NCBI GenBank assembly: GCA_003281405.1
Contig: QCCD01000006.1
Span: 1 to 64,000, forward strand
Direction: 5' to 3'
DNA: 64,000 nt
Source: Prochlorococcus sp. AG-347-K16
Lineage (GTDB): Bacteria > Cyanobacteriota > Cyanobacteriia > PCC-6307 > Cyanobiaceae
Below the pieces are notes generated by a model that ran no database searches, was not told the DNA's origin, and saw only the letters and a program-made list of their open reading frames with translations. Every line of letters begins with the position of its first letter. The stretch's first letter is position 1. Positions 27,703 through 48,948 of the stretch are shown in pieces. A program made the translations under genes and the position numbers.

Positions 27703-27712
27703 CTTTAAAATT

Positions 27713-27784
<72 letters not shown>

Positions 27785-27845
27785 TGGCCAAAAGCATTGC
27801 TACAAAAGAAATTATAAGAAATAAGGTAAGATTAATTTATAGCCG

Positions 27846-27863
27846 GATATATCTAGATATATC
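27846..27863. repeat. 18-bp perfect palindrome near the island left end
   Basis: GATATATCTAGATATATC reads the same on both strands. It lies 62 bp inside the island, beside the TGCACTAA repeats. It could be a binding site for a dimeric regulator or an excision factor; no binding data exist and AT-rich palindromes arise easily. Confidence 0.4.
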
Positions 27864-27879
27864 GACAATATAGCAATTC

Positions 27880-27902
27880 TGCACTAATATTTGCACTAAT
27901 TA
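27880..27902 (+). repeat. Left copy of the TGCACTAA double repeat
   Basis: Two direct copies of GCACTAAT spaced 11 bp apart form a 23-bp element. The same 23 bp recurs at 39352-39374 near the island right end with a single mismatch. A third single copy (CTGCACTAATTTT) occurs at about 27963. Paired short repeats inside both ends of an integrated element are typical of recombinase arm-binding sites, which I propose here. Confidence 0.55.
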
Positions 27903-27912
27903 CACTTTTAAA

Positions 27913-28047
27913 ATGACTAGTGCTAACAGCACTTCTTGGGAAAAAGAATTAAGAAAAAATATCTGCACTAATTTTGGTCGTGGGATTAGGGTGAATGGCG
28001 AAAATGGTGGTAGAACAAAACTTTTATATGGTTCCAAAAAATCTTAA
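27913..28047 (+). pseudogene. Short open frame, possible remnant of the element recombinase N-terminus
   Basis: A 44-residue frame beginning ATG at 27913 with WEKELRKNICTNFGRGIRVN and then NGGRTKLLYGSK. In tRNA-integrated elements the recombinase usually lies next to the tRNA, and many cyanobacterial tyrosine recombinases begin with a short WxxEL... region followed by a beta strand rich in K/R/L. The resemblance is weak. It may equally be a small gene of its own or noncoding. Confidence 0.25.
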
Positions 28048-28161
28048 TTAGATTTTTGTACATGCGGATTGGTGTTTTATTTTTTTTTAATAAATTATTA
28101 ACCTTATAAAGTTTCGAATTAAAATATAAACTAATCAATTCTCATATCCGAAAAATAGAAG

Positions 28162-29205
28162 TTGAACAAAAATAATATTGGTTTTATTTATTTCATGACA
28201 GAAAGGGATTTATTTGGTTATCCCTGTGGCCCTTATGTGAAGATTGGTCTTGTAAAAGGTAATGCCGATGGAAGATCATCTTTTGAGAGAAGAAAAGAAC
28301 ATCAAACAGGTAATCCAAGAGAAATAATTGTAGAAGCAGAAGTTAAAACCTATGCTCAAGTTTCAACGTTAGAATCTCTTATTCATCAAAGATTAGCAAA
28401 GTACAGAATCCATGGAGAATGGTTCAATTATGGAGAAGATGGAATAGAGCCATATGTAGAGTTAACTAAAGAAATCAATAAAGATTTAGAAGGTCAAATA
28501 AAGGATAATTTATTAATAAATCAATATGCATTAATTGAAGATAATGGAGAAGAATTAAAACCATCATCTGACGCAAAAGATATCCATAATGAGTTACTAG
28601 ATGCAAAAAAAGAAATCATAAAAATAAAAAATGAGAAAGATTTAGCAAATTTAAAACTTCGATCTATTGATAAAATTTTTTACCGAGATATTGAGGGAAT
28701 TTGTTTTTATGAAAAAATAAAACCACAAGAAAAATTTGATAAAGTAAATTTTGAAAAAAATCATCCAGATATTTTTGAAGAACTATCAGTTGAAGTTATT
28801 ACCCCAAATTTCACTATAAAAAAAGATTTAAAAAATAAAAAAAGCGAAGAATTTAAAAAGTTAGAAGAATTAATTGAAGATCAAAAATTTATTAATGAAG
28901 ATTCATTCAATTCAATAAATAGAAATGAAGATTTAATAAAATTGCACTCAAAATGGCTTGATGCGCATGTTGAACTTCAACCATTCGAATTAAAGAAAAA
29001 GTTACTTGAAAATAAGTTAAAAGTTTTAGTTGGAGAAAACCAAGGAATAAAAGATATATGTTCTTGGAAAAGGAAAAAAAAGAAACAAATTACAAAAAAT
29101 GCTTTATTAAAATTTGATCCTGAATTAGCAAAAAAATATATCTCGATTGGCGAACCACAAATAAGATTTAAGGTTAATGACTTTAGGCCATATCATTTTG
29201 AGTAA
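28162..29205 (+). CDS. T5orf172/MUG113-type (GIY-YIG-like) domain protein
   Basis: 347 residues starting at a TTG. The N-terminal 110 residues form a T5orf172-like domain: GFIYFMTERD, the PYVKIGLVKG strand, RRKEHQTGNPREI and STLESLIHQRLAKYRIHGEWF with the conserved Glu, His and terminal WF. This family is related to GIY-YIG nucleases and is frequent in phages and mobile elements. The rest is a charged helical region, probably coiled coil, with a lysine-rich end. It is convergent with the helicase gene, 36 bp apart. Nuclease activity is inferred, not shown. Confidence 0.75.
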   Translation: MNKNNIGFIYFMTERDLFGYPCGPYVKIGLVKGNADGRSSFERRKEHQTGNPREIIVEAEVKTYAQVSTLESLIHQRLAKYRIHGEWFNYGEDGIEPYVELTKEINKDLEGQIKDNLLINQYALIEDNGEELKPSSDAKDIHNELLDAKKEIIKIKNEKDLANLKLRSIDKIFYRDIEGICFYEKIKPQEKFDKVNFEKNHPDIFEELSVEVITPNFTIKKDLKNKKSEEFKKLEELIEDQKFINEDSFNSINRNEDLIKLHSKWLDAHVELQPFELKKKLLENKLKVLVGENQGIKDICSWKRKKKKQITKNALLKFDPELAKKYISIGEPQIRFKVNDFRPYHFE

Positions 29206-29241
29206 ATATTCAGAAAAATTATTTAATATATTTGAGAAATC

Positions 29242-32157
29242 CTAATTAATTAAATATTTATATAAGTTATCTTCTACAGGTTTATCAAGATACATCTTCA
29301 TTTTTACTATTTTTTCACTCTTTTTATTCTTTTTGTCCGTAATAAAAGTCTCCACTAAGCAATTTTTATCAACTTCCAGATTACCTAAATAATAAAATTC
29401 CTTTCCTTCATCATCATCTTTTTTTACGAATAAAGGTAATCGCATATTATTGTCTTTACTATTAATTATTTCTTGAACATCATTACTCTGTAATGTTCTT
29501 TTTTGTTTGGAAAACCATTCTAGTGTTTTTTTGTTTAGAAATTTATCCTCGTATTTACTGGTATAAGCAATATCTTCTGATTTCTTATAAGTCACATATA
29601 TAGGACAATTTTCTTTATCATCTGATACTCCATAGCCCCCAACATTCTGATGAATTGGTTCAATTGGCCAATTTAAGATTTTATGAATATCTCTTCGAGT
29701 ATATTTTTCATATCTGAGAAAACCATCAACAAAATCTGTATTTTTAATTTTATTTTCAAAAGCACTTAAGGAATAAGCGATTGAATCATGAAAATAATTA
29801 AAGAAAACTTTTTCTTTAAGTGCATTTTTAAGAGATGATCCAATTCTTAAATTATTATTTTCATAATTTACTATTTCAAAATTATATATACTTCGTAGTG
29901 GTGTTCTTTTCTTATCTTTTCTATCTATAAAATAGTTCAAATTTAGAATATTAAGGATAAATTCTATTGAATTATTACCAAATTTAATTTGATATTTTTC
30001 AAAAATTCTTTTCTCAAGGTTTTCAATAGATATAATTTTTTCTTCACTTATTACTTTAAGAACAAAGACCTCTAAAAAACTACAACCATTATTAATATCT
30101 CTTGAGAAAATTTGAAGTAATTTTAGATTAGTTGAATCTAAAATTTTATCTAAATCATTTTCAACAGAACTTACAAAGTCTAAATATGAATTTGAGTAAT
30201 TTACAAACTGAATAGGATCTCTTGAATTATTTTCAAGGAAATCAATCATCATTGGTATTCTCCCAAGACGATTTTTTAAAAGTTTATAATCATTTATTAA
30301 ATTTCTTTTTGTTTGCAGATTGGCGCTAGAAATTGAATCAAATATTTTTTGTTTAGAAATTTCATCAAAATTTATTGTGCTTGCCCCTGGAATTTCAGAA
30401 TTTCCAGAAACAACTAATTTCCTTAAATTATCTTTACTGTAAGAAGTATCTCCAAATAAAGCTACAGGTATTAAAAAATTATTTTGATAATTACCAATAA
30501 AATCTATTACCGTAAGATATTCTTTATTTTCAACCTTTCTTAATCCCCTCCCAAGCTGCTGAATAAAAATTATATTTGATTGAGTTGGTCTTAACATTAT
30601 TATTTGATTTATTTTTGGTATGTCAATGCCTTCATTAAAAATATCTACGGTAAAAATATAGTCTAATTTTTCATCTAAATTATTACTTTCTAATCTTTGA
30701 ATTGCTTCTTCACGTTCCAACTCAGTATGTTTTCCAGTTAAAGCGATTGATTTAAATCCTCTTGAATTAAATTTATTTGATAGTTCGATTGCTTCCTCTT
30801 TTCTAGAACAAAATACTAAAGCTCTTATATTATTATCATCGCATCCATATTTCATTGATTTAGCGATAATTTTTTCTACCCTTTCTTCTCCAGTTAAATT
30901 TTGAAAATCAGCATTCTCATCTAGTAATGAACCATTAACACTTATATCTGTAATGCCAAAGTAATGAAAGGGAACAATAAGCTCCTCTTCCATAGCCTTT
31001 TGCAATCTAATTTCATAAGCAATATTATGTTCAAAAAGCTTAAAAATATCATAGTCATCTGTTCTCTCAGGGGTTGCAGTCATACCCAAAAGAAATTTAG
31101 GTGAAAAATAGTTTATTATTTTTTGATATGTTGCTGCTCCAGCTCTATGTGTTTCGTCGATAATTATATAATCAAAAAATTTAGGGTCAAATCTTTTCAA
31201 GTTTTCAGTATTACTTAAAGTAAGATTTGTTGTAAATATAAAATCATCTTTTATCTCTTTTGAAGAACTTTCAAAAAGACCATAAGTTCTTTCATTTTGA
31301 AATATTCTACGAAAGGAATCCATTGCTTTTTTTGCAATATTCCACCTGTGTACAACGAAAAGTACCCTTTTTGCATTACTTTGTTTGACATCAAATGCAG
31401 AAAGATATGTTTTACCAGTAGCTGTAGCTGATATTAATAAGGCTTTATCAATTTTTAAATCCCTTAAAAATCTTAAATTCTTAAGTGCTTTTTCTTGCAT
31501 TGCATTAGGACTTAATTTATCAAAAAGATTTTTATTTTTTAAATTAATTTCTATATTCAGATTTTTATATTTATTAAAAAGAATCTGATATTCATTTAAA
31601 AATTCTTCACTTATATTTACCCCTTTTAAAAAATATCTTTCGAATATTGATAATGCCTCTTCAATTAATTTACTATTATTTGATAATGATAATTTGAGAT
31701 TATATTCTGTATTTTTGCTTAAGGCATCTTGAGTTAAATTACTACTCCCAATAATCAATTCATAACTATTTTTAAGCTTGAAGAGATAGCCCTTTGCATG
31801 AAAGTTATTTTCATCAATCAACCGTACTTCAATATTTGAAAAATTTAATAGGATTCTTAATGCAGAAGGATCGCTAAAATTTTGATATTTTGAAACTAAT
31901 ATTTTACCTTTAATACCAAGTTGCTCTATTTTTTCAAGTGTATTAAAGAGACTTATAACTCCGCTCTTAGTTACAAAAGCAACATTGAAAAAAAATTCAT
32001 CACATTCTTGCAAAAGAAAATCTAATGTAGATAAAACTTTCTCTTTCTTGGCATAATTATTAGTAATTATTTTTGGTTGTAAAGATATTTCAGACTGAAT
32101 ATTTTTATTAATTAAACCAGTTTTAATAGACTCTAATAAATTATTTTCAAATTCCAT
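29242..32157 (-). CDS. PLD-nuclease/DEAD-like helicase with DUF3427 C-terminus
   Basis: 971 residues, three parts. Residues 35-185 form a phospholipase D-like domain with NFHAKGYLF (HxK at 120-122) and GSSNLT. A superfamily 2 helicase follows with SATATGKTYLS (Walker A), IIIDETHRAG (motif II), LGMTATPERTDD (III) and FIQQLGRGLRK (VI). The C-terminal third, ending around NVGGYGVSDDKENCPIYVTY, resembles DUF3427. Only one HxK half-site is visible, so the nuclease part would need to dimerise. Its start overlaps the NUDIX gene by 11 bp, indicating coupled translation. Such proteins are usually found in defence islands; a defence role here is inferred. Confidence 0.82.
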   Translation of the reverse strand: MEFENNLLESIKTGLINKNIQSEISLQPKIITNNYAKKEKVLSTLDFLLQECDEFFFNVAFVTKSGVISLFNTLEKIEQLGIKGKILVSKYQNFSDPSALRILLNFSNIEVRLIDENNFHAKGYLFKLKNSYELIIGSSNLTQDALSKNTEYNLKLSLSNNSKLIEEALSIFERYFLKGVNISEEFLNEYQILFNKYKNLNIEINLKNKNLFDKLSPNAMQEKALKNLRFLRDLKIDKALLISATATGKTYLSAFDVKQSNAKRVLFVVHRWNIAKKAMDSFRRIFQNERTYGLFESSSKEIKDDFIFTTNLTLSNTENLKRFDPKFFDYIIIDETHRAGAATYQKIINYFSPKFLLGMTATPERTDDYDIFKLFEHNIAYEIRLQKAMEEELIVPFHYFGITDISVNGSLLDENADFQNLTGEERVEKIIAKSMKYGCDDNNIRALVFCSRKEEAIELSNKFNSRGFKSIALTGKHTELEREEAIQRLESNNLDEKLDYIFTVDIFNEGIDIPKINQIIMLRPTQSNIIFIQQLGRGLRKVENKEYLTVIDFIGNYQNNFLIPVALFGDTSYSKDNLRKLVVSGNSEIPGASTINFDEISKQKIFDSISSANLQTKRNLINDYKLLKNRLGRIPMMIDFLENNSRDPIQFVNYSNSYLDFVSSVENDLDKILDSTNLKLLQIFSRDINNGCSFLEVFVLKVISEEKIISIENLEKRIFEKYQIKFGNNSIEFILNILNLNYFIDRKDKKRTPLRSIYNFEIVNYENNNLRIGSSLKNALKEKVFFNYFHDSIAYSLSAFENKIKNTDFVDGFLRYEKYTRRDIHKILNWPIEPIHQNVGGYGVSDDKENCPIYVTYKKSEDIAYTSKYEDKFLNKKTLEWFSKQKRTLQSNDVQEIINSKDNNMRLPLFVKKDDDEGKEFYYLGNLEVDKNCLVETFITDKKNKKSEKIVKMKMYLDKPVEDNLYKYLIN

Positions 32158-32542
32158 TTTTATTATCTAGTAATCTAATTAATTCAAGATCAGCAGGTAT
32201 CCAATCTAAAGATTTTAGTTTATTTTTTTGAATTAATTTATAAGAGATATGTTCATTTAATTTTATATCAAATTTTTCGACTGAACATAAATAACAGTGC
32301 ATTTTTATATTGAAGTCAGGATAGGAATAGTTAATAGTTGAGAAAAAACTTTCTATAGATATAGATAAAGAAAGTTCTTCTTTAATTTCTCTAATAAGTG
32401 CTTGTTCATTAGTTTCATTATCCTCTACTTTTCCACCAGGAAATTCAAATTTTCTAGAAAGATAATTATATTTATTTTTACTTCTTTGGCAGCAAAGAAA
32501 TTTATCATTTACTTTTATTATTGCTGCTACAACTTCTATCAT
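32147..32542 (-). CDS. NUDIX hydrolase (MutT-like)
   Basis: 131 residues with a nearly perfect NUDIX box from Gly37: GKVEDNETNEQALIREIKEE matches GX5EX7REUXEE, with Ser in place of the last glycine. EVVAAIIKVNDKFLCCQRS at the N-terminus and LDWIPADLELI at the end are typical of MutT-like nucleoside triphosphate pyrophosphohydrolases. It overlaps the downstream helicase gene by 11 bp, so the two form a unit. Its presence as a helicase partner is unlike a housekeeping mutT. Confidence 0.88.
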   Translation of the reverse strand: MIEVVAAIIKVNDKFLCCQRSKNKYNYLSRKFEFPGGKVEDNETNEQALIREIKEELSLSISIESFFSTINYSYPDFNIKMHCYLCSVEKFDIKLNEHISYKLIQKNKLKSLDWIPADLELIRLLDNKNGI

Positions 32543-32779
32543 TTATTTGGAAATATATTTTATTTGAATATTCTAATGACCTTTACTAATAATACAAATT
32601 TACTTCTTGCTAAGAAGAATTTATTTTGGCACTATTAGTAACCGACTCTAAAATTGGCACATCTAATTGAGATGTTACCTTTAATGGCCAGATTGAACTG
32701 AAAGATTCGAGATCAGGGGATTTAATATTTTTCTTTCGGTTCAGCTGTTAAAAAGTTCCTACACACATACCTATAGAAA

Positions 32780-33562
32780 ATGAAAATTTTAAAAAATATC
32801 AGGTCGCTTCCAGGCGATTCTCTGAGAGTTATTCGTCGTACTCCACCACTTGTTTTTGCAATGGCTGTATTATCACTTGGTGGTTTTATTGGGGCATCAA
32901 CCGTTCTTGTTAGAGGTTTTCGGATGGTTGAAAATTCAATCACTGTTACTGGTGCTAGTACGGAAAGTTTTGAAAGTGATATTGCCAAATGGTCCGTTCA
33001 GGTCAGGGCTACTGGTAAAACTCAAATTGACTCTTTTAACAAGCACAAAGAGTCAATGAAAAAGACTATGAATTTCCTTAAAGCCAATGGAATTGTAGAT
33101 GGCATTAAACAAGAAGTTTATCTTGGACCAGCGAGCATCAAGGAATATGAAACCAAGCATCCGAAGACAAATGAAATTATAAGAACGGAATGGATTACTT
33201 ATCAGAGTATAGAAATACAAAGTAATGATGTTTATCGCATTCAAAAGACCCACAGTAAGATAACTGAACTTCTTGGTGATGGTGTTTTAGTAAGACCAAG
33301 TTCACCAGAATTTACATATTCAAAGCTTGCTGATAAAAGAGTAGACATGCTCGCCAAGGCTGCAAAAGATGCACGTATCAGAGCTGAAGCTATTGCTCTT
33401 CAGGCAGGATCTGAAGTGGGAGGTTTAAAGAAAGTGAACACTGGGGTATTTCAGATCACAGTTCCTAATTCCACAAGAGTAAGCAGCTGGGGTTCTTATG
33501 ATACTTCAACAATTAAGAAAGATATTACTGCTGTAATGGGAGTAACTTTCGCAGTTAAATAA
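32780..33562 (+). CDS. SIMPL (DUF541) domain protein, membrane-anchored periplasmic
   Basis: 260 residues. A single N-terminal membrane anchor (about residues 22-45, LVFAMAVLSLGGFIGASTVL) precedes a SIMPL domain that starts SITVTGASTESFESDIAKW, continues through DKRVDMLAKAAKDARIRAEA and ends DITAVMGVTFAVK. The fold resembles BP26/SIMPL periplasmic proteins of unclear function. Base composition looks less AT-rich than the neighbouring helicase and RM genes, so it may have joined the island from a host chromosome. Confidence 0.85.
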   Translation: MKILKNIRSLPGDSLRVIRRTPPLVFAMAVLSLGGFIGASTVLVRGFRMVENSITVTGASTESFESDIAKWSVQVRATGKTQIDSFNKHKESMKKTMNFLKANGIVDGIKQEVYLGPASIKEYETKHPKTNEIIRTEWITYQSIEIQSNDVYRIQKTHSKITELLGDGVLVRPSSPEFTYSKLADKRVDMLAKAAKDARIRAEAIALQAGSEVGGLKKVNTGVFQITVPNSTRVSSWGSYDTSTIKKDITAVMGVTFAVK

Positions 33563-33567
33563 TTGAC

Positions 33568-33663
33568 TTAGGGGGTCTTCTTTTTGCCTTTTAGGATCAT
33601 CAATAAAGGTAGTCCAATAAGCATTAGGCTCCCATCAATTAACAAAAAAGTGTTCAGATTCAT
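33568..33663 (-). CDS. 31-residue membrane peptide, cassette copy 1
   Basis: Begins with an ATG whose ATGA overlaps the stop of the 63-residue gene at 33660. The peptide MNLNTFLLIDGSLMLIGLPL continues to LMILKG and a basic end. One hydrophobic helix spans residues 6-24. It matches the peptide at 39762-39857 in 28 of 31 residues, better than the partner gene does, which supports translation. Function unknown. Confidence 0.65.
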   Translation of the reverse strand: MNLNTFLLIDGSLMLIGLPLLMILKGKKKTP

Positions 33664-33851
33664 TTATCCTTACCTTCATTAATTTCAAAAGATAGAGGGA
33701 TACCTTTTTTTACTGGATCTTTCTTCATATCTTCCATTTCCTTCCTTAATTTCTTGTAGTATGCAAGTTCCTCAGGATGATCAGAACCAAGGCCATAGCC
33801 CATGGTCGCTGCCAGATAAATCCTATGCATTCTGTAAGAACTTAAAGTCAT
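33660..33851 (-). CDS. 63-residue small protein, cassette copy 1
   Basis: Starts MTLSSYRMHRIYLAATMGYG and continues LGSDHPEELAYYKKLRKEME with a lysine-rich C-terminus. It is 45/63 identical (by my alignment) to the protein at 39574-39765. The downstream 31-residue gene overlaps its stop by four bases. I do not recognise a named family. The pair sits between the SIMPL gene and a secreted small protein, on the opposite strand to both. Confidence 0.75.
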   Translation of the reverse strand: MTLSSYRMHRIYLAATMGYGLGSDHPEELAYYKKLRKEMEDMKKDPVKKGIPLSFEINEGKDK

Positions 33852-33915
33852 ACTGAGATCATAAACAACTAAATGTTAAATCAGGAAAAAAGTTATTTTT
33901 AAATCTTCTACCAAA

Positions 33916-34422
33916 ATGAAAAAATTATTTCTTCTATCACTATTAATAAGTTTAATTTCTCCAATTAAAACTTTTGCTGGTTTTCCAGAGGGAGAAAAAG
34001 GATTTGATCTTAAGAAAATTGAGGAGTCTTTTAAGTTGCCTTGCGATGAAATAGGTAATGATGAATGTATAGCTAGAGCTTTTGGAGTAGGAGCTTGCAC
34101 CTGGGTATTTGGAATTAAAAAGGGTAAAGAATCAAAAGAAGCTTTAAGGATTGCAGATGAAGTTTTAATAGCTCTTATGAAGGGAAATAATCTAGATATA
34201 AATTCTATTTTTGAGAAAGATGGTTCTATAAAGGAGGCTATAAAAAAAGAAGCAGTTTATAGAATCAATTTTTGCAAAGATGCTACAAAATTGGCTATTC
34301 CAAAATTAATAAAAAAACTTCCAGAAGGCATTGAATTAGATGAAGAAAGAATCGAGAATTTAGCAAGCGTTTTCCCTCTCCAATATTTGATAATGTTTGA
34401 ACAAATGAAAAAGGGTAATTAG
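33916..34422 (+). CDS. Secreted small protein, unknown
   Basis: 168 residues with a clear signal peptide (MKKLFLLSLLISLISPIKTF, cleavage probable after Ala22) and a mature part with three or four cysteines (LPCDEIGNDECIARAFGVGAC, NFCKDATK). Mature length is about 145 residues. I know no family. It is divergent from the cassette at 33660 and is followed by a 60-residue gene 9 bp downstream. Confidence 0.7.
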   Translation: MKKLFLLSLLISLISPIKTFAGFPEGEKGFDLKKIEESFKLPCDEIGNDECIARAFGVGACTWVFGIKKGKESKEALRIADEVLIALMKGNNLDINSIFEKDGSIKEAIKKEAVYRINFCKDATKLAIPKLIKKLPEGIELDEERIENLASVFPLQYLIMFEQMKKGN

Positions 34423-34431
34423 AGTTAAAGT

Positions 34432-34614
34432 ATGAAAAACTTATGGACCAAAAGAAACATTATGGACTATCTAAGCCACCCTGATGAGAGCTTGGATAAG
34501 AACTACAGCCCACTTAGACAGAAGTACAGAAAAGAACTTAGAAGGATGGATGAAGAAACCAAAAAAGATGGAGGAGTTGTTGATTGGAACTATATATTGA
34601 ACGATTTCATGTAA
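34432..34614 (+). CDS. Small charged protein, unknown
   Basis: 60 residues, MKNLWTKRNIMDYLSHPDES followed by basic and acidic residues and ending VVDWNYILNDFM. It lies 9 bp after the secreted-protein gene and its stop almost touches a tRNA-Ala fragment. No family recognised. Confidence 0.5.
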   Translation: MKNLWTKRNIMDYLSHPDESLDKNYSPLRQKYRKELRRMDEETKKDGGVVDWNYILNDFM

Positions 34615-34616
34615 TA

Positions 34617-34660
34617 GGTAGTGAGGATTTGAACCGCAGACCCCTGCATGCCATGCAGTA
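34617..34660 (-). repeat. Degenerate 3' fragment of tRNA-Ala (GGC)
   Basis: On the minus strand the sequence contains CTGC-ATGGCAT-GCAG, the anticodon arm of tRNA-Ala(GGC), then the variable bases and a T arm with GGTTCAAATCC, and a degenerate acceptor end. The 5' half is missing. It looks like a leftover attachment site from an element that used tRNA-Ala. Confidence 0.7.
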
Positions 34661-34787
34661 ACCAAAAGCCTTGCAAATACTGGGAATCACAGGGTTTATG
34701 ACAGTACTTTAACATAGCTGAGAGCAGGAATAAGTGCAGTTTTGTCTAAGCGTTTATAAGTAAGTAAATCTATTGTAAAAAAATTAC

Positions 34788-34800
34788 TTTTTTTTTTTTT
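34788..34800 (+). repeat. 13-base poly-T tract upstream of the type III methylase gene
   Basis: An uninterrupted run of 13 T lies about 100 bp before the mod start, followed by a TATAAT-like box near 34812. Such a run could vary in length by slipped-strand pairing and change promoter spacing. Confidence 0.6.
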
Positions 34801-34900
34801 ATAAAATTTTTTTATAATAATAATTCTAATTATTATTTTCAAATTAGTATAAGTACAAAATCTTTTGAAATCAAATAAAAAATAATTTAAATAAATAATT

Positions 34901-36595
34901 ATGAAAACACAAGATTATACTAATTGGACTAAAGAACAATTAATTGAACAACTCAAAAGTTTTGAAGAAACTAAAAAGTATGGTTTAGTTTGGGTTAATA
35001 AAAAAGAAGATGTTAAAGAAAAATTTAAATTGTATTCTCCTTTATTATCTTTAAATCCTAAAAAGTGTTTTTTTGAAAATGATAAAAGCGAAAATAATAT
35101 TTTTATAGAAGGCGATAATCTTGATTCATTATCAATATTAAATTACTCACACAAAGGCAAAATTGATGTAATTTATGTTGATCCGCCTTATAACACAGGA
35201 GCTACTAACTGGAAATACAACAATAGTTATGTTGATTCAGAAGATCCTTATAGGCATAGTAAGTGGATTTCATTTATGTATTTTCGTTTGCGCCTAGCAA
35301 GGACTCTTCTAAGTGAAGAAGGTATTATTTGTATCACCATTGATGATTACGAGTTTCCAAGATTATTTATGGTTATGGAAGAAATTTTTGGGAGTAATAA
35401 TTTTCTTGGTAATGTAATTATTAGAAACAACCCAGGAGGAAGAAAATCTAAAAGGAAAGTAGCAGCTCAACATGAATATGCTATTTTCTTTTCAAAAAAT
35501 CCTCAAGTATCAGTAGCTAAAATAGATATTGAAATAGAAAACAAATCACATAAATATGAGAAAAATGATAAAGGTGAATTGATTGAATGGAGAAACTTAA
35601 GAAAAGAAGGATCTGACTCTATGGCCAAACCAGGTTCAGATAGATTTTATCCAATTTATTTTGATTCAGATACAGGTGAGATAAGCTCTTCAAAAATTCT
35701 ACCTATTAAGATTCTTCCTCTTGATTCCAAAGGTGACAAAAGGATATGGAGGAGATCAAAGGATGATGTAGATGTTTTATTTAAAAAAAATGAATTAAAA
35801 ATAAAAAAAACAAGCTATGGAAATCAAGTTTATTTTCAATTTAAAGGAGGATTAAGTGGAGAGACGCCTAAAAGTTTACAGTTAGATAATAAGTTTTCAG
35901 CAAGCGAATATGGCACAAAAGAATTAGATAATATTTTAGGGGAAAGAGAAAGTTTCAATTTTCCAAAATCCAAACATGCAGTAGCGCAATGCATAAAAAT
36001 AGCATCATCAAAGAAAGATGCAATAATTCTAGATTTTTTTGCAGGATCTGGAACAACTGGTCAAGCTGTTTTGGAACTAAATAATGAGGATGGTGGAAAT
36101 AGAAAATTTATATTATGTACAAATAACGAAAATAAAATTGCTGATGAAGTTTGTTATCCAAGAATAAGTAAGATTATGGGAGGTTATCAAAATAAAGGTG
36201 GAGAGTTCATAAAAGGTTTAGGAGGAAATTTAAAATACTTTAATATCATCCATGTGCTCAGAGGGAAAAAAGATAGTGATAAAAAAATCCTAGCTAATAA
36301 TATTAATGATTTGATTTGTTTGAAAGAAAATACTTTTAATAAATTTTTAGTTAAACCTGATTTTCAAATATATAAGTCAATTTTTTTATATGTGGTAATA
36401 ATCCATGATATTTTAAGCATTAATGAAGTTAAAAAAGAATTAAGAAATCTTGATTTACCCATTAAAATTTATGTATTTTCTCTTGGTGATGATGATTTAG
36501 AAGATGAATTTCTTGATATTAAAAACATAGTAAAAATTGATATTTTTCCTAATCCATTGTTTAAAACATATACACGAATTATAGAGAAACTTTAA
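34901..36595 (+). CDS. mod: Type III restriction-modification methylase (Mod)
   Basis: Adenine-N6 DNA methyltransferase, 564 residues. The catalytic DPPYNTG (residues 94-100) precedes the SAM motif DFFAGSGTTGQA (near residue 378), the beta-class order used by type III Mod subunits. The N-terminus TKEQLIEQLKSFEETKKYGL and GDNLDSLSILNYSHKGKIDV are typical. The C-terminal part has the variable target recognition region between the motifs and a terminal extension. Two base pairs separate it from the Res gene, so they form one operon. No frame disruption is seen. Confidence 0.93.
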   Translation: MKTQDYTNWTKEQLIEQLKSFEETKKYGLVWVNKKEDVKEKFKLYSPLLSLNPKKCFFENDKSENNIFIEGDNLDSLSILNYSHKGKIDVIYVDPPYNTGATNWKYNNSYVDSEDPYRHSKWISFMYFRLRLARTLLSEEGIICITIDDYEFPRLFMVMEEIFGSNNFLGNVIIRNNPGGRKSKRKVAAQHEYAIFFSKNPQVSVAKIDIEIENKSHKYEKNDKGELIEWRNLRKEGSDSMAKPGSDRFYPIYFDSDTGEISSSKILPIKILPLDSKGDKRIWRRSKDDVDVLFKKNELKIKKTSYGNQVYFQFKGGLSGETPKSLQLDNKFSASEYGTKELDNILGERESFNFPKSKHAVAQCIKIASSKKDAIILDFFAGSGTTGQAVLELNNEDGGNRKFILCTNNENKIADEVCYPRISKIMGGYQNKGGEFIKGLGGNLKYFNIIHVLRGKKDSDKKILANNINDLICLKENTFNKFLVKPDFQIYKSIFLYVVIIHDILSINEVKKELRNLDLPIKIYVFSLGDDDLEDEFLDIKNIVKIDIFPNPLFKTYTRIIEKL

Positions 36596-36597
36596 TA

Positions 36598-38802
36598 ATG
36601 TTATTGAAGAATTATCAAGAAAAAGCTAAAGATGAATTGGTTGAAAAAAGTATTGATCTTCTTTCGTCTAATTATCCATCTAAGTTAATTTTAAAAGCAC
36701 CAACAGGATCTGGGAAAACAATTATAACTGCTGAATATCTAAGGCATCTTGCTGGTAATAATAATCTAGAAAAACCAATATCAGTAATTTGGGCAGCTCC
36801 GCGTCAACTTCATCTTCAAAGTAAAGATAAATTAAAAAATTATTTTTCTGATAATTGCGTATTGATTTGCTCAGATTTTGAAGACCTAGCTGAAAACGAA
36901 ATTTCAGAAAATGAAATTCTTTTTTTAAATTGGGAAAGTATAAACAAAAAAAATAATATTTTAATAAGAGAAAACGAGAAAAATTTTTATCTTGGGAAAG
37001 TCTTGGATAATACAAAATTTAATTCTAGATATTTAATTTTGATTATTGATGAAAGCCATCATCATGCAACTAGTGAAATATCTCAACAACTTATAAAAGA
37101 TATATGTCCGGATTTAACATTGGAAGTATCAGCAACCCCAGTGATAAGTTCTCCAGATGGTTTTGTCAATATTCATTTAAATGAAGTAAAGAAAGAAGGT
37201 ATGATTAAAAACTCCATAATTATTAATGAAGGTTATGAGAATCAATTGTCAGGAGAATTTCTAGATACCGCTCTTAAAGAAGGAACAAATTCTTTAGTAA
37301 TTCAATGTTCTTTAGAAAAAAGAGAAAATATTAGAAAGGAGTTTATGAAAAATAATATTAGAGTTAATCCTCTTTTGTTAGTACAGCTTCCAAATAAACA
37401 ATTAAAGAATGATGAAGATGCTCTTAAACAAGAAATTATAAATCTTTTAAAAAAACAAAATATTACTACTGATAATGGGAAATTAGGTATTTGCTTATCA
37501 AATCAAAAAGTAAATTTCCAAAATATTCAAGATAATAACAATAATGTAGAAGTACTTATTATTAAACAAGCAATAGCTTTAGGTTGGGATTGTCCAAGAG
37601 CTCAAGTATTAGCTTTATTTAGAGAATGGAAAAGTGTGACTTTTTCAATTCAGACTTTAGGAAGAATTATGAGGATGCCTGAACCGGAATTTGGGCATTA
37701 TCAAAATTATCTCTTGGACAATTCTTTTGTCTATACAAATTTAGAAGAAATTGAACTTCAAGAAGATGTTTCTTATGGTTATTTAAGAATTAAAAATAGT
37801 ATTAGAAAAGAAGATACTAATCTCGCTTTAACCTCATTTTATCGAAAAAGAATAAGAGAAAAAACAAGGCTTAGTCCGCAGTTTATTAGATTATTTTTAG
37901 AGTCTTCAAAGGAATATCAACTTGCAAGTAAGATAAAAACAAAAAACCAGCAAGTAAATTTGTCAATTCTCCAAGAGACTTCAATTAACAATTTAGATAC
38001 CACTTATGAATTAAAGAAAGATCAATCTTTACTCAACCTTGAAAATGCTGATGATCTTCAAAAAGCTTTTGATACCTTTACAAAACAAAATTTAGATCCT
38101 TTTTATCCAGAAGAAAGATCTATTAAAAGACTAAATCAAGCAATTTATAAATTTTTTGAATTAGAGTTTAATATTCATTATGAAATAGATTTAAGATCAA
38201 TTATTAATATAGTTTTGAGTTCAAATAATCTTATTCATTTTAAAAATGTCATTTATAGTTCAAAACAAAAATATCTTAAAATAGTAGAGAAAACAAAAGA
38301 TTCTCTCATTAAAATTGAAGATTGGAACATACCATATGAAATCAGTTACTATGCTCAAGTGAAAGAGTGGCCAGTTAAAAATTCAATTATGCAGCCTTTT
38401 TTTATAAGTAAATTAACTGAAATTGAAAAAAAATTTATAACTTTCTTGGATAAATCAGAAAAAATTAAATGGTGGTTTAGGAATGGAGATAGCGATGCTA
38501 CATATTTTGCAATTCCATATGCAGAAAATGATAAATTAAGAACTTTTTATTTAGATTTTATAGTATGTACAGTAGACAATAAATTAGGTTTTTTTGATAC
38601 CAAGAGTGGTATTACTATCATGGATGCAAAAGAAAAACTTTCTGGTCTTAGAGAGTTTTTAGCAAGTAAAAAAAATTATTTTGGAGGTTTAGTCTCAAAC
38701 ACCGATCAAAAAAATTATTTAAATTCATGGATTTATTTTAATCAATGCCCTTCTGAATTAAAAAAAGATAAATTTGAGAATTGGGAATTTATTGATTTTT
38801 GA
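36598..38802 (+). CDS. res: Type III restriction-modification ATPase/nuclease (Res)
   Basis: 734 residues. The helicase core has APTGSGKTIITAEYL (Walker A, 34-41), LILIIDESHHHA (motif II), EVSATPVIS (III) and TLGRIMRMPEP (VI). The C-terminus contains FYLDFIVCTV and GFFDTKSG, the D...DxK pattern of a PD-(D/E)XK nuclease, which the Res family requires for cutting. It follows Mod by 2 bp. Both genes look intact, so the system is probably active. Sequence specificity cannot be read from the sequence. Confidence 0.9.
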   Translation: MLLKNYQEKAKDELVEKSIDLLSSNYPSKLILKAPTGSGKTIITAEYLRHLAGNNNLEKPISVIWAAPRQLHLQSKDKLKNYFSDNCVLICSDFEDLAENEISENEILFLNWESINKKNNILIRENEKNFYLGKVLDNTKFNSRYLILIIDESHHHATSEISQQLIKDICPDLTLEVSATPVISSPDGFVNIHLNEVKKEGMIKNSIIINEGYENQLSGEFLDTALKEGTNSLVIQCSLEKRENIRKEFMKNNIRVNPLLLVQLPNKQLKNDEDALKQEIINLLKKQNITTDNGKLGICLSNQKVNFQNIQDNNNNVEVLIIKQAIALGWDCPRAQVLALFREWKSVTFSIQTLGRIMRMPEPEFGHYQNYLLDNSFVYTNLEEIELQEDVSYGYLRIKNSIRKEDTNLALTSFYRKRIREKTRLSPQFIRLFLESSKEYQLASKIKTKNQQVNLSILQETSINNLDTTYELKKDQSLLNLENADDLQKAFDTFTKQNLDPFYPEERSIKRLNQAIYKFFELEFNIHYEIDLRSIINIVLSSNNLIHFKNVIYSSKQKYLKIVEKTKDSLIKIEDWNIPYEISYYAQVKEWPVKNSIMQPFFISKLTEIEKKFITFLDKSEKIKWWFRNGDSDATYFAIPYAENDKLRTFYLDFIVCTVDNKLGFFDTKSGITIMDAKEKLSGLREFLASKKNYFGGLVSNTDQKNYLNSWIYFNQCPSELKKDKFENWEFIDF

Positions 38803-38981
38803 AATAAAAACTTTGTTTACATTTTAGACTTACATAAGAATTATGTAATTCTTAAAAAGAAAACTCAAAGTGCATTTTAGAGAGCAGAATCGCATAAACA
38901 AGCTTGGACAAGTGGGTACAAAAGTTATTTTATTACTAAACGCTGTCTGAAAACTATTGGTATGACTGAAAAAATTAAGTT

Positions 38982-39034
38982 GAGCCATGCGGATTCGAAC
39001 CTGCGACATAGTGCTCCCAAAGCACCCGCGCCAT
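38982..39034 (-). repeat. 3' fragment of tRNA-Pro (UGG)
   Basis: On the minus strand GGTGC-TTTGGGA-GCACT is the anticodon arm of tRNA-Pro(UGG), followed by a variable region and a T arm GGTTCGAATCC, then a degenerate acceptor end. The 5' half is lost. It lies 7 bp beyond the 3' end of the frameshifted gene at 39041 and is another probable attachment-site remnant. Confidence 0.75.
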
Positions 39035-39040
39035 AACTTT

Positions 39041-39327
39041 TTATTTTGCTTCCAAACCAACTAATTTCATAAGAACTTTTGCATTACTAGCAACCGCAGA
39101 ATATTGTTTTTCTCGCATTGCTCTATACATTGCAGTTTCTAAAGTACATACTAATTTTGCTGCCATTTCAGGGCGATTTAAGTGATCTGCCTTGCTCATC
39201 TTCTTGATATTCCATATTTCACGGCAACAAGGGAAGTAATAGATGAATAGGCTTGTCCTTCAGCAACTAATTCAGCAGCATGAGCAACTCTTAATTCAGT
39301 TTCTTGTTTAGTTGCTCTTTTATACAT
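39041..39327 (-). pseudogene. Frameshifted small DNA-binding-type gene (small-terminase-like)
   Basis: Two overlapping frames read as one former protein. The first, from 39327, is MYKRATKQETELRVAHAAEL then VAEGQAYSSITSLVAVKYG and ends ISRR at a TGA at 39196-39198. The second, from an ATG at 39199, reads MSKADHLNRPEMAAKLVCTL and ends VGLEAK at 39041. ITSLVAVKYGISRR looks like a helix-turn-helix. The layout resembles small terminase-type proteins carried by phage satellites; that relationship is a guess. A deletion at the junction is likely. Confidence 0.6.
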
Positions 39328-39351
39328 ATTTCAAGCTAAGTAACCTTATTA

Positions 39352-39374
39352 TGCACTAAAATTTGCACTAATTA
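39352..39374 (+). repeat. Right copy of the TGCACTAA double repeat
   Basis: Same 23-bp element as 27880-27902 with one mismatch (position 9, A instead of T). It stands 65 bp inside the attR copy, whereas the left copy stands 95 bp inside attL. It has the same orientation as the left copy. Confidence 0.55.
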
Positions 39375-39439
39375 AGTAATATTTAACATATTTTACTCTT
39401 CAACCTATTGCAAATACTTGCTTTTATAAAGTATTATCT

Positions 39440-39485
39440 TCCCTTGGTAAGGGAGAGGTCTCGGGTTCAAGTCCCGACGAGGGCA
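39440..39485 (+). repeat. Right attachment repeat (attR), tRNA-Thr 3' fragment
   Basis: Exact 46-base copy of the 3' part of tRNA-Thr at 27739-27784. It lacks a tRNA 5' half and cannot encode a tRNA. It marks the right border of the island. Confidence 0.93.
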
Positions 39486-39573: not shown

Positions 39574-39765
39574 ATGCCACTATCGTCATACCGGATGCAC
39601 AAAATATATATAGCAGCAACCATGAATTATGGTCTTGGTTCTGATGATCCAGAGGAGTTGGCCTACTACAACAAAATCAGAAAAGAGATGGAAGAAATGA
39701 AAAAACAACCAATTAAAAAAGGAATTTCCCTGAATTGGAATACCCCAGATGGAATGGATAAATGA
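39574..39765 (+). CDS. 63-residue small protein, cassette copy 2
   Basis: MPLSSYRMHKIYIAATMNYG and LGSDDPEELAYYNKIRKEME match copy 1 at 33660-33851 in about 45 of 63 positions. I choose the ATG at 39574, which gives the same length as copy 1. An in-frame TTG at 39562 would add four residues. It lies 88 bp outside attR, on the chromosomal side, in inverted orientation relative to copy 1. Confidence 0.78.
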   Translation: MPLSSYRMHKIYIAATMNYGLGSDDPEELAYYNKIRKEMEEMKKQPIKKGISLNWNTPDGMDK

Positions 39766-39857
39766 ACCTCAATACTTTTTTATTAATTGATGGGAGTCTA
39801 ATGCTTATTGGTCTGCCTTTATTGATGATTCTCAAAGGCAATAAAAAATTTAGCTGA
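39762..39857 (+). CDS. 31-residue membrane peptide, cassette copy 2
   Basis: Its ATGA overlaps the stop of the 63-residue gene, as in copy 1. The sequence MNLNTFLLIDGSLMLIGLPL followed by LMILKGNKKFS differs from copy 1 in only three residues, all near the C-terminus. One membrane helix and a basic end. It is too short for most gene callers. Confidence 0.68.
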   Translation: MNLNTFLLIDGSLMLIGLPLLMILKGNKKFS

Positions 39858-48620: not shown

Positions 48621-48685
48621 GATATTTGATTTCCTTCTAACAGGATATAAAATTACATATTTTAAAGTCTATTTACTCATAAACC

Positions 48686-48948
48686 TAGAATACGTGAATT
48701 CGGGGATTTCTCTCGATAATTTCAGTCCCTGTTGTCGCTAGTAATTATAAAACGAAGTCTTATCAGACTAATTGATTGAACTTTAATTTTCGAATAATCC
48801 CATTCTCAGGAATACGCTTCCTATATTTTGGAATTTGCTAAATTTCAGGCGGACTATCAATCATTTAGATTGCCTCCGAACTCAACATTTATAAATTACT
48901 CCTTTTTGTATTTTCAGTAAATCCGTAAATATGCTGATTTACTTTTTT
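48686..48948 (+). ncRNA. Structured noncoding RNA candidate, about 200-250 nt
   Basis: Long-range stem: bases 48695-48705 pair with 48874-48884 (ten pairs, one mismatch, one G-T). Inside are hairpins AGTCT/AGACT (48756-48769), AGGAA/TTCCT (48808-48822) and CAATC/GATTG (48858-48872), the last abutting the closing stem. A TAGAAT box at 48686-48691 fits a start near 48697, and a terminator (48916-48948) follows. No reading frame of useful size is present. Size and the long closing stem recall 6S RNA, but I recognise no conserved bases, and transcription in the other direction is also possible. Confidence 0.5.
48916..48948 (+). terminator. Rho-independent terminator
   Basis: AGTAAATC (48916-48923) pairs perfectly with GATTTACT (48936-48943), 12-base loop, then TTTTTT. 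It sits just past the closing stem of the structured RNA, which supports rightward transcription. Confidence 0.8.

Follow-up and report, generated by a model that had tools for sequence, protein, structure and literature searches.

Prochlorococcus is reported (Hackl et al., Cell 2023) to carry tycheposons, cargo-carrying elements that reside at tRNA genes and remodel genomic islands. A summary of tycheposons is to be found in PMC10872708. For islands detected by Islander, crossovers in the anticodon loop, in the T-loop and at the T/acceptor junction are all recognized, the T-loop being an accepted integrase sub-site (PMC4383910). Integrative elements are also known to use secondary sites and to integrate in tandem, as with SGI1 at sodB-purR (PMC2297512).

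The window considered here, the whole stretch of 64,000 nucleotides that was analysed, comes from the draft genome of Prochlorococcus sp. AG-347-K16 (1.57 Mb in 37 contigs) and was compared with a set of 266 genomes of the genus, cited below by handles beginning with G (contigs with C, loci with L). It quite probably records the recombination of an Ala-type element, with the type III restriction-modification genes Mod and Res as cargo, into a tRNA-Pro scar at the distal tip of a defence island bounded by tRNA-Thr, two tRNA fragments within that island being the hybrid ends of the newcomer. The features are collected in Table 1.

Table 1. Features of the Thr-bounded island and of the insert at its distal tip (positions are those of the window)
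Feature	Position	Strand	Basis or remark
Intact tRNA-Thr(GGT), proximal island border	27712-27785	+	ARAGORN, Rfam
Tandem 12-bp-spaced repeat TCTGCACTAATATTTGCACTAAT, inside proximal Thr border	27878-27900	+	Candidate integrase arm site, P' side
T5orf172/GIY-YIG-like protein, island cargo	28162-29205	+	Pfam PF10544, E 1.6e-8
Type IV methyl-directed restriction enzyme-like PLD/helicase/DUF3427 protein, island cargo	29242-32157	-	PADLOC mREase_IV, 738 bits; Pfam
NUDIX protein adjoining the type IV-like restriction enzyme	32147-32542	-	PADLOC PDC-S07; Pfam
Small cargo ORF X, 60 aa	34432-34614	+	Stop codon 10 bp from core; non-tRNA side of original Pro/X site
Hybrid junction Ala/X	34615-34658	-	tRNA-Ala positions ~27-62 (34625-34658), then X
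Inserted Ala-type element, core to core, 4,366 bp	34625-38990		In-silico removal restores continuous alignment to relatives
P arm of Ala-type element	34661-34770	-	Precedes distal Ala remnants in relatives, 75-88%
Mod, type III DNA methyltransferase, insert cargo	34901-36595	+	PADLOC MTase_III, 274 bits; PF01555
Res, type III restriction subunit, insert cargo	36598-38802	+	PF04851, E 2.6e-18; PADLOC REase_III
P' arm of Ala-type element	38854-38979	-	Directly after intact tRNA-Ala in own contig C11 and in relatives
Hybrid junction Pro/Ala	38980-39031	-	tRNA-Pro(UGG) to T-loop (38991-39031), then Ala 3' end (38980-38990)
Frameshifted small HTH-like gene ending at Pro remnant	39041-39330	-	113 aa, intact in relatives; conserved island tip
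Tandem TGCACTAAAATTTGCACTAATTA repeat, distal island end	39350-39374	+	Candidate arm site, P side
tRNA-Thr 3' remnant, distal island border	39440-39485	+	46 bp, identical to 3' part of tRNA-Thr(GGT)

The outer frame is an island of 11.7 kb (27712-39485) whose Thr border, already recognized in a first-pass annotation, is borne out by the identity of the remnant to the intact gene. Just within both of its ends lie TGCACTAA repeats in tandem with 12-bp spacing; the score of the proximal one was reached by 3 of 300 shuffles and its sequence is matched at the distal end. This is the pattern expected for integrase arm sites, for which the repeats are candidates. The cargo includes a SIMPL protein in addition to the proteins tabulated, and the type IV-like restriction gene with its NUDIX neighbour (29242-32542) suggests a defence role for the Thr island, with two restriction modules in it. 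An inverted repeat of 265 bp (77%; 33578-33840 versus 39586-39847) with a small ORF inside flanks the distal part of the island and also adjoins the Thr-island tips of several relatives; elsewhere in the window there is an Rfam match to Yfr8 at 48661-48886.

Inside this frame the first-pass annotation had described minus-strand 3' fragments of tRNA-Ala(GGC) and tRNA-Pro(UGG) and had taken them for two more remnants, such that the island might be a mosaic of several stacked elements. The fragments are real, lie near where they had been placed and match the intact genes of the host beyond chance, with 98% over 41 bp for Pro (38991-39031, E 2.7e-12) and 95% over 38 bp for Ala (34622-34658, E 1.7e-8). 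Neither has a 5' half, as had been noted; both begin in the anticodon stem, at about position 27, and run into the T-loop. Their extents needed amendment: the 38980-38990 portion of the supposed Pro fragment is the 3' end of tRNA-Ala, and the 34617-34624 portion of the supposed Ala fragment is not tRNA-Ala. On the minus strand the Pro part (39031 to 38991) takes in tRNA-Pro(UGG) from the anticodon stem as far as GGTTCGAATCC and gives way to the 3' end of tRNA-Ala(GGC) and then to about 125 bp of an Ala-element arm; the Ala part (34658 to 34625) likewise takes in tRNA-Ala from its anticodon stem as far as GGTTCAAATCC and gives way to X. Both change identity at one T-loop position and together they bound a single insert of 4.37 kb, which disposes of ‘two more remnants’ and of their stacking. 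What survives of the mosaic is that attachment sequences of Thr, Pro and Ala type are combined in one island, but not as independent leftovers of two further Ala and Pro islands. That X might be the 3' end of yet another tRNA was considered and rejected, a 36-gene tRNA set holding no match to it (best edit distance 5 of 11). With up to 2 mismatches allowed, a search of the 266 genomes returned no Ala/Pro hybrid besides the window's copy, and the reciprocal hybrid was absent from the same genomes.

How closely can the point of exchange be placed? Ala and Pro have GGTTCRAATCC in common, which is the generic tRNA T-loop. At position 57 Pro has G and Ala has A, and at either junction this base has remained with the left half; the base that follows AATCC has gone with the right half in both cases, so that both exchanges are confined to the same AATCC. 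Put back together, the Ala halves yield a single site that departs from the host allele, CTGCGG-TTCAAAT-CCGCATGGCTC, by no more than one deleted nucleotide and one substitution. Such junctions are to be expected if an Ala site and a Pro/X site recombined once, conservatively and reciprocally.

The Pro/X site exists in uninterrupted form. G049 and G201 have it beside a Thr remnant, with the T-loop of the Pro remnant running straight into X, and here too the notion of independent Ala and Pro remnants founders. Adjacent to the same core X is 99% identical in G049 and 90% in both G201 and G175. With 34625-38990 removed in silico the window aligns continuously to G049 over 1,667 columns (90.8%) and to G201 over 743 columns (85.2%), whereas the unedited alignment to relatives breaks at the core; the 60 bp to the left of the core are identical in both genomes. 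After this removal the left flank is 95% and the right flank 82% identical to G049, a disparity that may reflect separate recombination histories of the Pro tip and X. In all, Pro/X is present in three genomes (G049, G201 and G175), with two different left contexts, as against a single genome for the insert. At the core two left halves and two non-tRNA right halves are found in all four combinations: HTH/X1 in G049 and G201, HTH/X2 in G165, the other left half with X1 in G175 and with X2 in G157.

In many relatives the HTH-like gene of the island tip, 113 aa long, ends at a tRNA-Pro remnant, with a Thr or an Ala remnant on the other side, and it is seen beside tRNA-Pro remnants at island tips in more than 25 genomes. 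It has a weak match to PHROG_34910, and it is possible that it encodes a directionality factor or is a satellite gene. Downstream of the genome's own tRNA-Pro(UGG) (G000:C14:166-6658, L012) come two Pro-bounded segments in tandem, both with a Pro remnant at the end. The first contains genes for an ArsR-like regulator, GAPDH, an MFS transporter and a PstS-like protein and the second genes for small high-light-inducible-type proteins and hypothetical proteins; 11-bp tandem GGGCGATC repeats lie near the borders of these segments.

The insert resembles an element whose ordinary home is tRNA-Ala. Sequence of the 38854-38979 type directly follows intact tRNA-Ala in the genome's own contig C11 (89%), in G017 (92-93%) and in G040, G067 and others, the C11 match extending over 149 bp (38854-39001, 89%). 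Sequence of the 34661-34770 type precedes the Ala remnants at the distal ends of Ala-bounded insertions in G017, G040, G067, G104, G047, G061 and others. Both are found, in this order, in the Ala insertions of G017, G040, G067, G118 and G061, and because they bound tRNA-Ala insertions in relatives they are designated P' and P arms. That the 137 bp past the Ala 3' end might be the native flank of tRNA-Ala was rejected, as G017, G040 and G067 place this sequence between the intact tRNA-Ala and the P arm with its remnant. The G040 version is of about 1.6 kb and has one methyltransferase-like gene between both arms. The window's segment, with both arms, both halves of the Ala site and the Mod/Res cargo, thus looks like a complete Ala-type element, but one away from tRNA-Ala. 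Candidate arm repeats in the window's Ala copy were not significant on their own in a shuffle test. A tandem Ala-type structure is present in L141 (G243:C4, 2571-8580), where intact tRNA-Ala and its P' arm are followed by a P arm and then by a second Ala remnant, to which a further P' arm belongs.

The adjacent Mod and Res genes constitute a type III restriction-modification pair by Pfam and PADLOC; the PADLOC scores for Res (734 aa) are weak at 51 bits. The likeness to known type III systems lies in neighbouring mod and res genes that encode N6_N4_Mtase and ResIII/DEAD domains, and the difference in that they are here the sole recognizable cargo of a minimal element bounded by attachment sites. 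No relative of Mod was detected in 264 other genomes of the genus, and the only relative of Res found outside the window, at 22%, is in a planctomycete. As to mobility or packaging in vesicles or phage particles, a trait of tycheposons, the viral contigs of IMG/VR yielded no match to the hybrid sites, to Res or to the tip protein, an absence that amounts to weak evidence. Given that the Ala/Pro hybrid and the Mod gene are each unique in the genus genomes searched, the insertion is taken to be a rare event.

The sequence itself shows the hybrid junctions and the arms, as well as the crossover interval and, in relatives, the uninterrupted site; from these a course of events can be sketched. An integrase-less cargo element (P' arm, Res and Mod, P arm) would have circularized via its tRNA-Ala attachment site, and the circle, an intermediate that we infer, would have recombined with the tRNA-Pro-derived scar, with its Pro/X core, at the distal island tip. 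A single conservative, reciprocal crossover within the AATCC of GGTTCRAATCC would then have generated the hybrid sites Pro/Ala and Ala/X. Catalysis would presumably have been by a tyrosine recombinase supplied in trans. No tyrosine recombinase (PF00589) was found among the main ORFs of the insert or of the Thr island; the two PF00589 genes of the genome, one near tRNA-Ser(GCT) on C2 and one on C7, are both unlinked to the insertion. Downstream of tRNA-Ser(GCT) on C2 (G000:C2:128055-131840, L160) there are a serine resolvase and a phage-type tyrosine integrase; the locus is probably a small integrated element and its integrase a candidate for a recombinase acting in trans.

The T-loop is apparently not where Ala-type elements usually cross over, which is a point against the course of events just sketched. 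In six relatives (G017, G067, G242, G106, G104 and G061) the T-arm alleles of the intact tRNA-Ala and of the remnant differ, each being self-consistent, which puts their usual crossover before the T-arm, at or close to the anticodon arm. A crossover in the anticodon loop or nearby fits these normal insertions; for that in the window the junction sequences rule out the anticodon loop. An Ala remnant in L146 (G190:C33, 7966-8011) has a mixed T-arm, CAGCGG on the left and TTCAAATCCGCATGG on the right, possibly as a T-loop recombinant of two Ala alleles, or else by point mutation. Pro scars are another matter. Among the loci examined all 15 incomplete Pro junctions (14 in relatives and that in the window, several being kin by descent, with about 10 distinct right halves) have their break within Pro positions 57-65; in two others it lies at 71-72. 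As the breaks fall there and left and right halves occur in all four combinations, exchange in the T-loop seems to be recurrent for scars of Pro type.

Is a site-specific enzyme needed at all? In the main rival view no site-specific recombinase took part, and the junctions were made at the conserved T-loop by short-homology or template-switch events or by ordinary homologous recombination; we regard this as possible if somewhat doubtful. The shared GGTTC-R-AATCC is, after all, the longest stretch common to all tRNA genes, the normal integrase crossover appears elsewhere and the Ala/Pro hybrid is unique. Nevertheless, both junctions are conservative and reciprocal: the Pro/X site has kept every base, once each, and the imperfect identity involved extends over only 5-11 bp. 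The same loop is where many Pro junctions break, and it is a recognized integrase sub-site (PMC4383910). Direction is a separate matter. Integration and excision are the same reaction and sequence alone does not give its direction, so that G049 and G201 might be the derived forms, with an ancestral insert cleanly excised through its T-loop cores. This is unlikely, with an empty site in three genomes and two left contexts to set against an insert in one, and with Mod and Res otherwise absent from the genus; gain in the window's strain rather than loss elsewhere is what parsimony indicates.

Two further explanations were considered. Stacked remnants are common enough in the genus, tandem Pro remnants occurring downstream of tRNA-Pro on the genome's own C14 and single loci of G047 and G019 holding several of them, for the fragments to have been imagined as independent decayed vestiges of two earlier islands, at tRNA-Ala and tRNA-Pro, brought together by successive integrations. 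Such an origin is very improbable and was rejected: the fragments switch identity at a common T-loop position, the Ala parts are complementary halves of one site, and the flanks are directly joined in the uninterrupted sites of G049 and G201. Hardly any credence can be given to an assembly artefact, in which unrelated contigs were joined at the short common T-loop. The genome is indeed a draft in 37 contigs, but standard assembly would not join contigs over an overlap as short as 11 bp, the genome is without a second copy of the insert's P arm, of the Mod gene or of the Pro/Ala junction, and the flanks are collinear with G049.

With recombination of an Ala-type element into the Pro scar as the preferred reading, the window offers a base-level snapshot of how a defence island bounded by a tRNA grows, a small restriction-modification element having ‘parked’ in the scar of a different tRNA, where functional tRNA genes are spared. 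Foreign tRNA remnants within an island then need not imply separate islands, and such elements are missed when fragments are mapped to cognate genes. A bolder and decidedly tentative proposal is that the conserved T-loop serves as an exchange core common to element families of different tRNA specificity, by which cargo modules bounded by attachment sites may be swapped between Ala-, Pro- and Thr-type elements in picocyanobacterial islands through a crossover unlike that of normal homing. If general, T-loop exchange between families would explain the mixed remnants in these islands.

Among described systems SGI1 at its secondary site (PMC2297512) provides a parallel in that a site-specific element uses a non-primary site and leaves hybrid repeats, the difference being that the site here is the tRNA scar of another element with the T-loop as apparent core. 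With integron gene cassettes there is an analogy only, cargo ends abutting a recombination core, the sites seen here being tRNA-derived. The Thr island fits the Islander pattern (PMC4383910) of a tDNA with its cognate 3' fragment, whereas the insert has, in place of a cognate tRNA and its displaced fragment, the ends Pro/Ala and Ala/X, and in place of an integrase only Mod and Res as recognizable genes; since each end combines two tRNAs, a search for cognate fragments would overlook the insert or label it wrongly. The closest likeness is to tycheposons, as cargo elements at tRNA genes of a marine picocyanobacterium, bordered on one side by the intact tRNA and on the other by a remnant. The Thr island (27712-39485) and the Ala-type elements of G017, G040 and G067 have such borders and the window's Ala-type copy does not, sitting as it does in the scar of another tRNA, away from tRNA-Ala, by way of a T-loop crossover. 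Island and insert alike differ from tycheposons in having, among their main ORFs, no match to PF00589, the tyrosine recombinase hallmark, for which reason the label is ‘tycheposon-like’. The insert is a tycheposon-like tRNA-targeted element, and its unusual part is the junction across two tRNAs at the T-loop.
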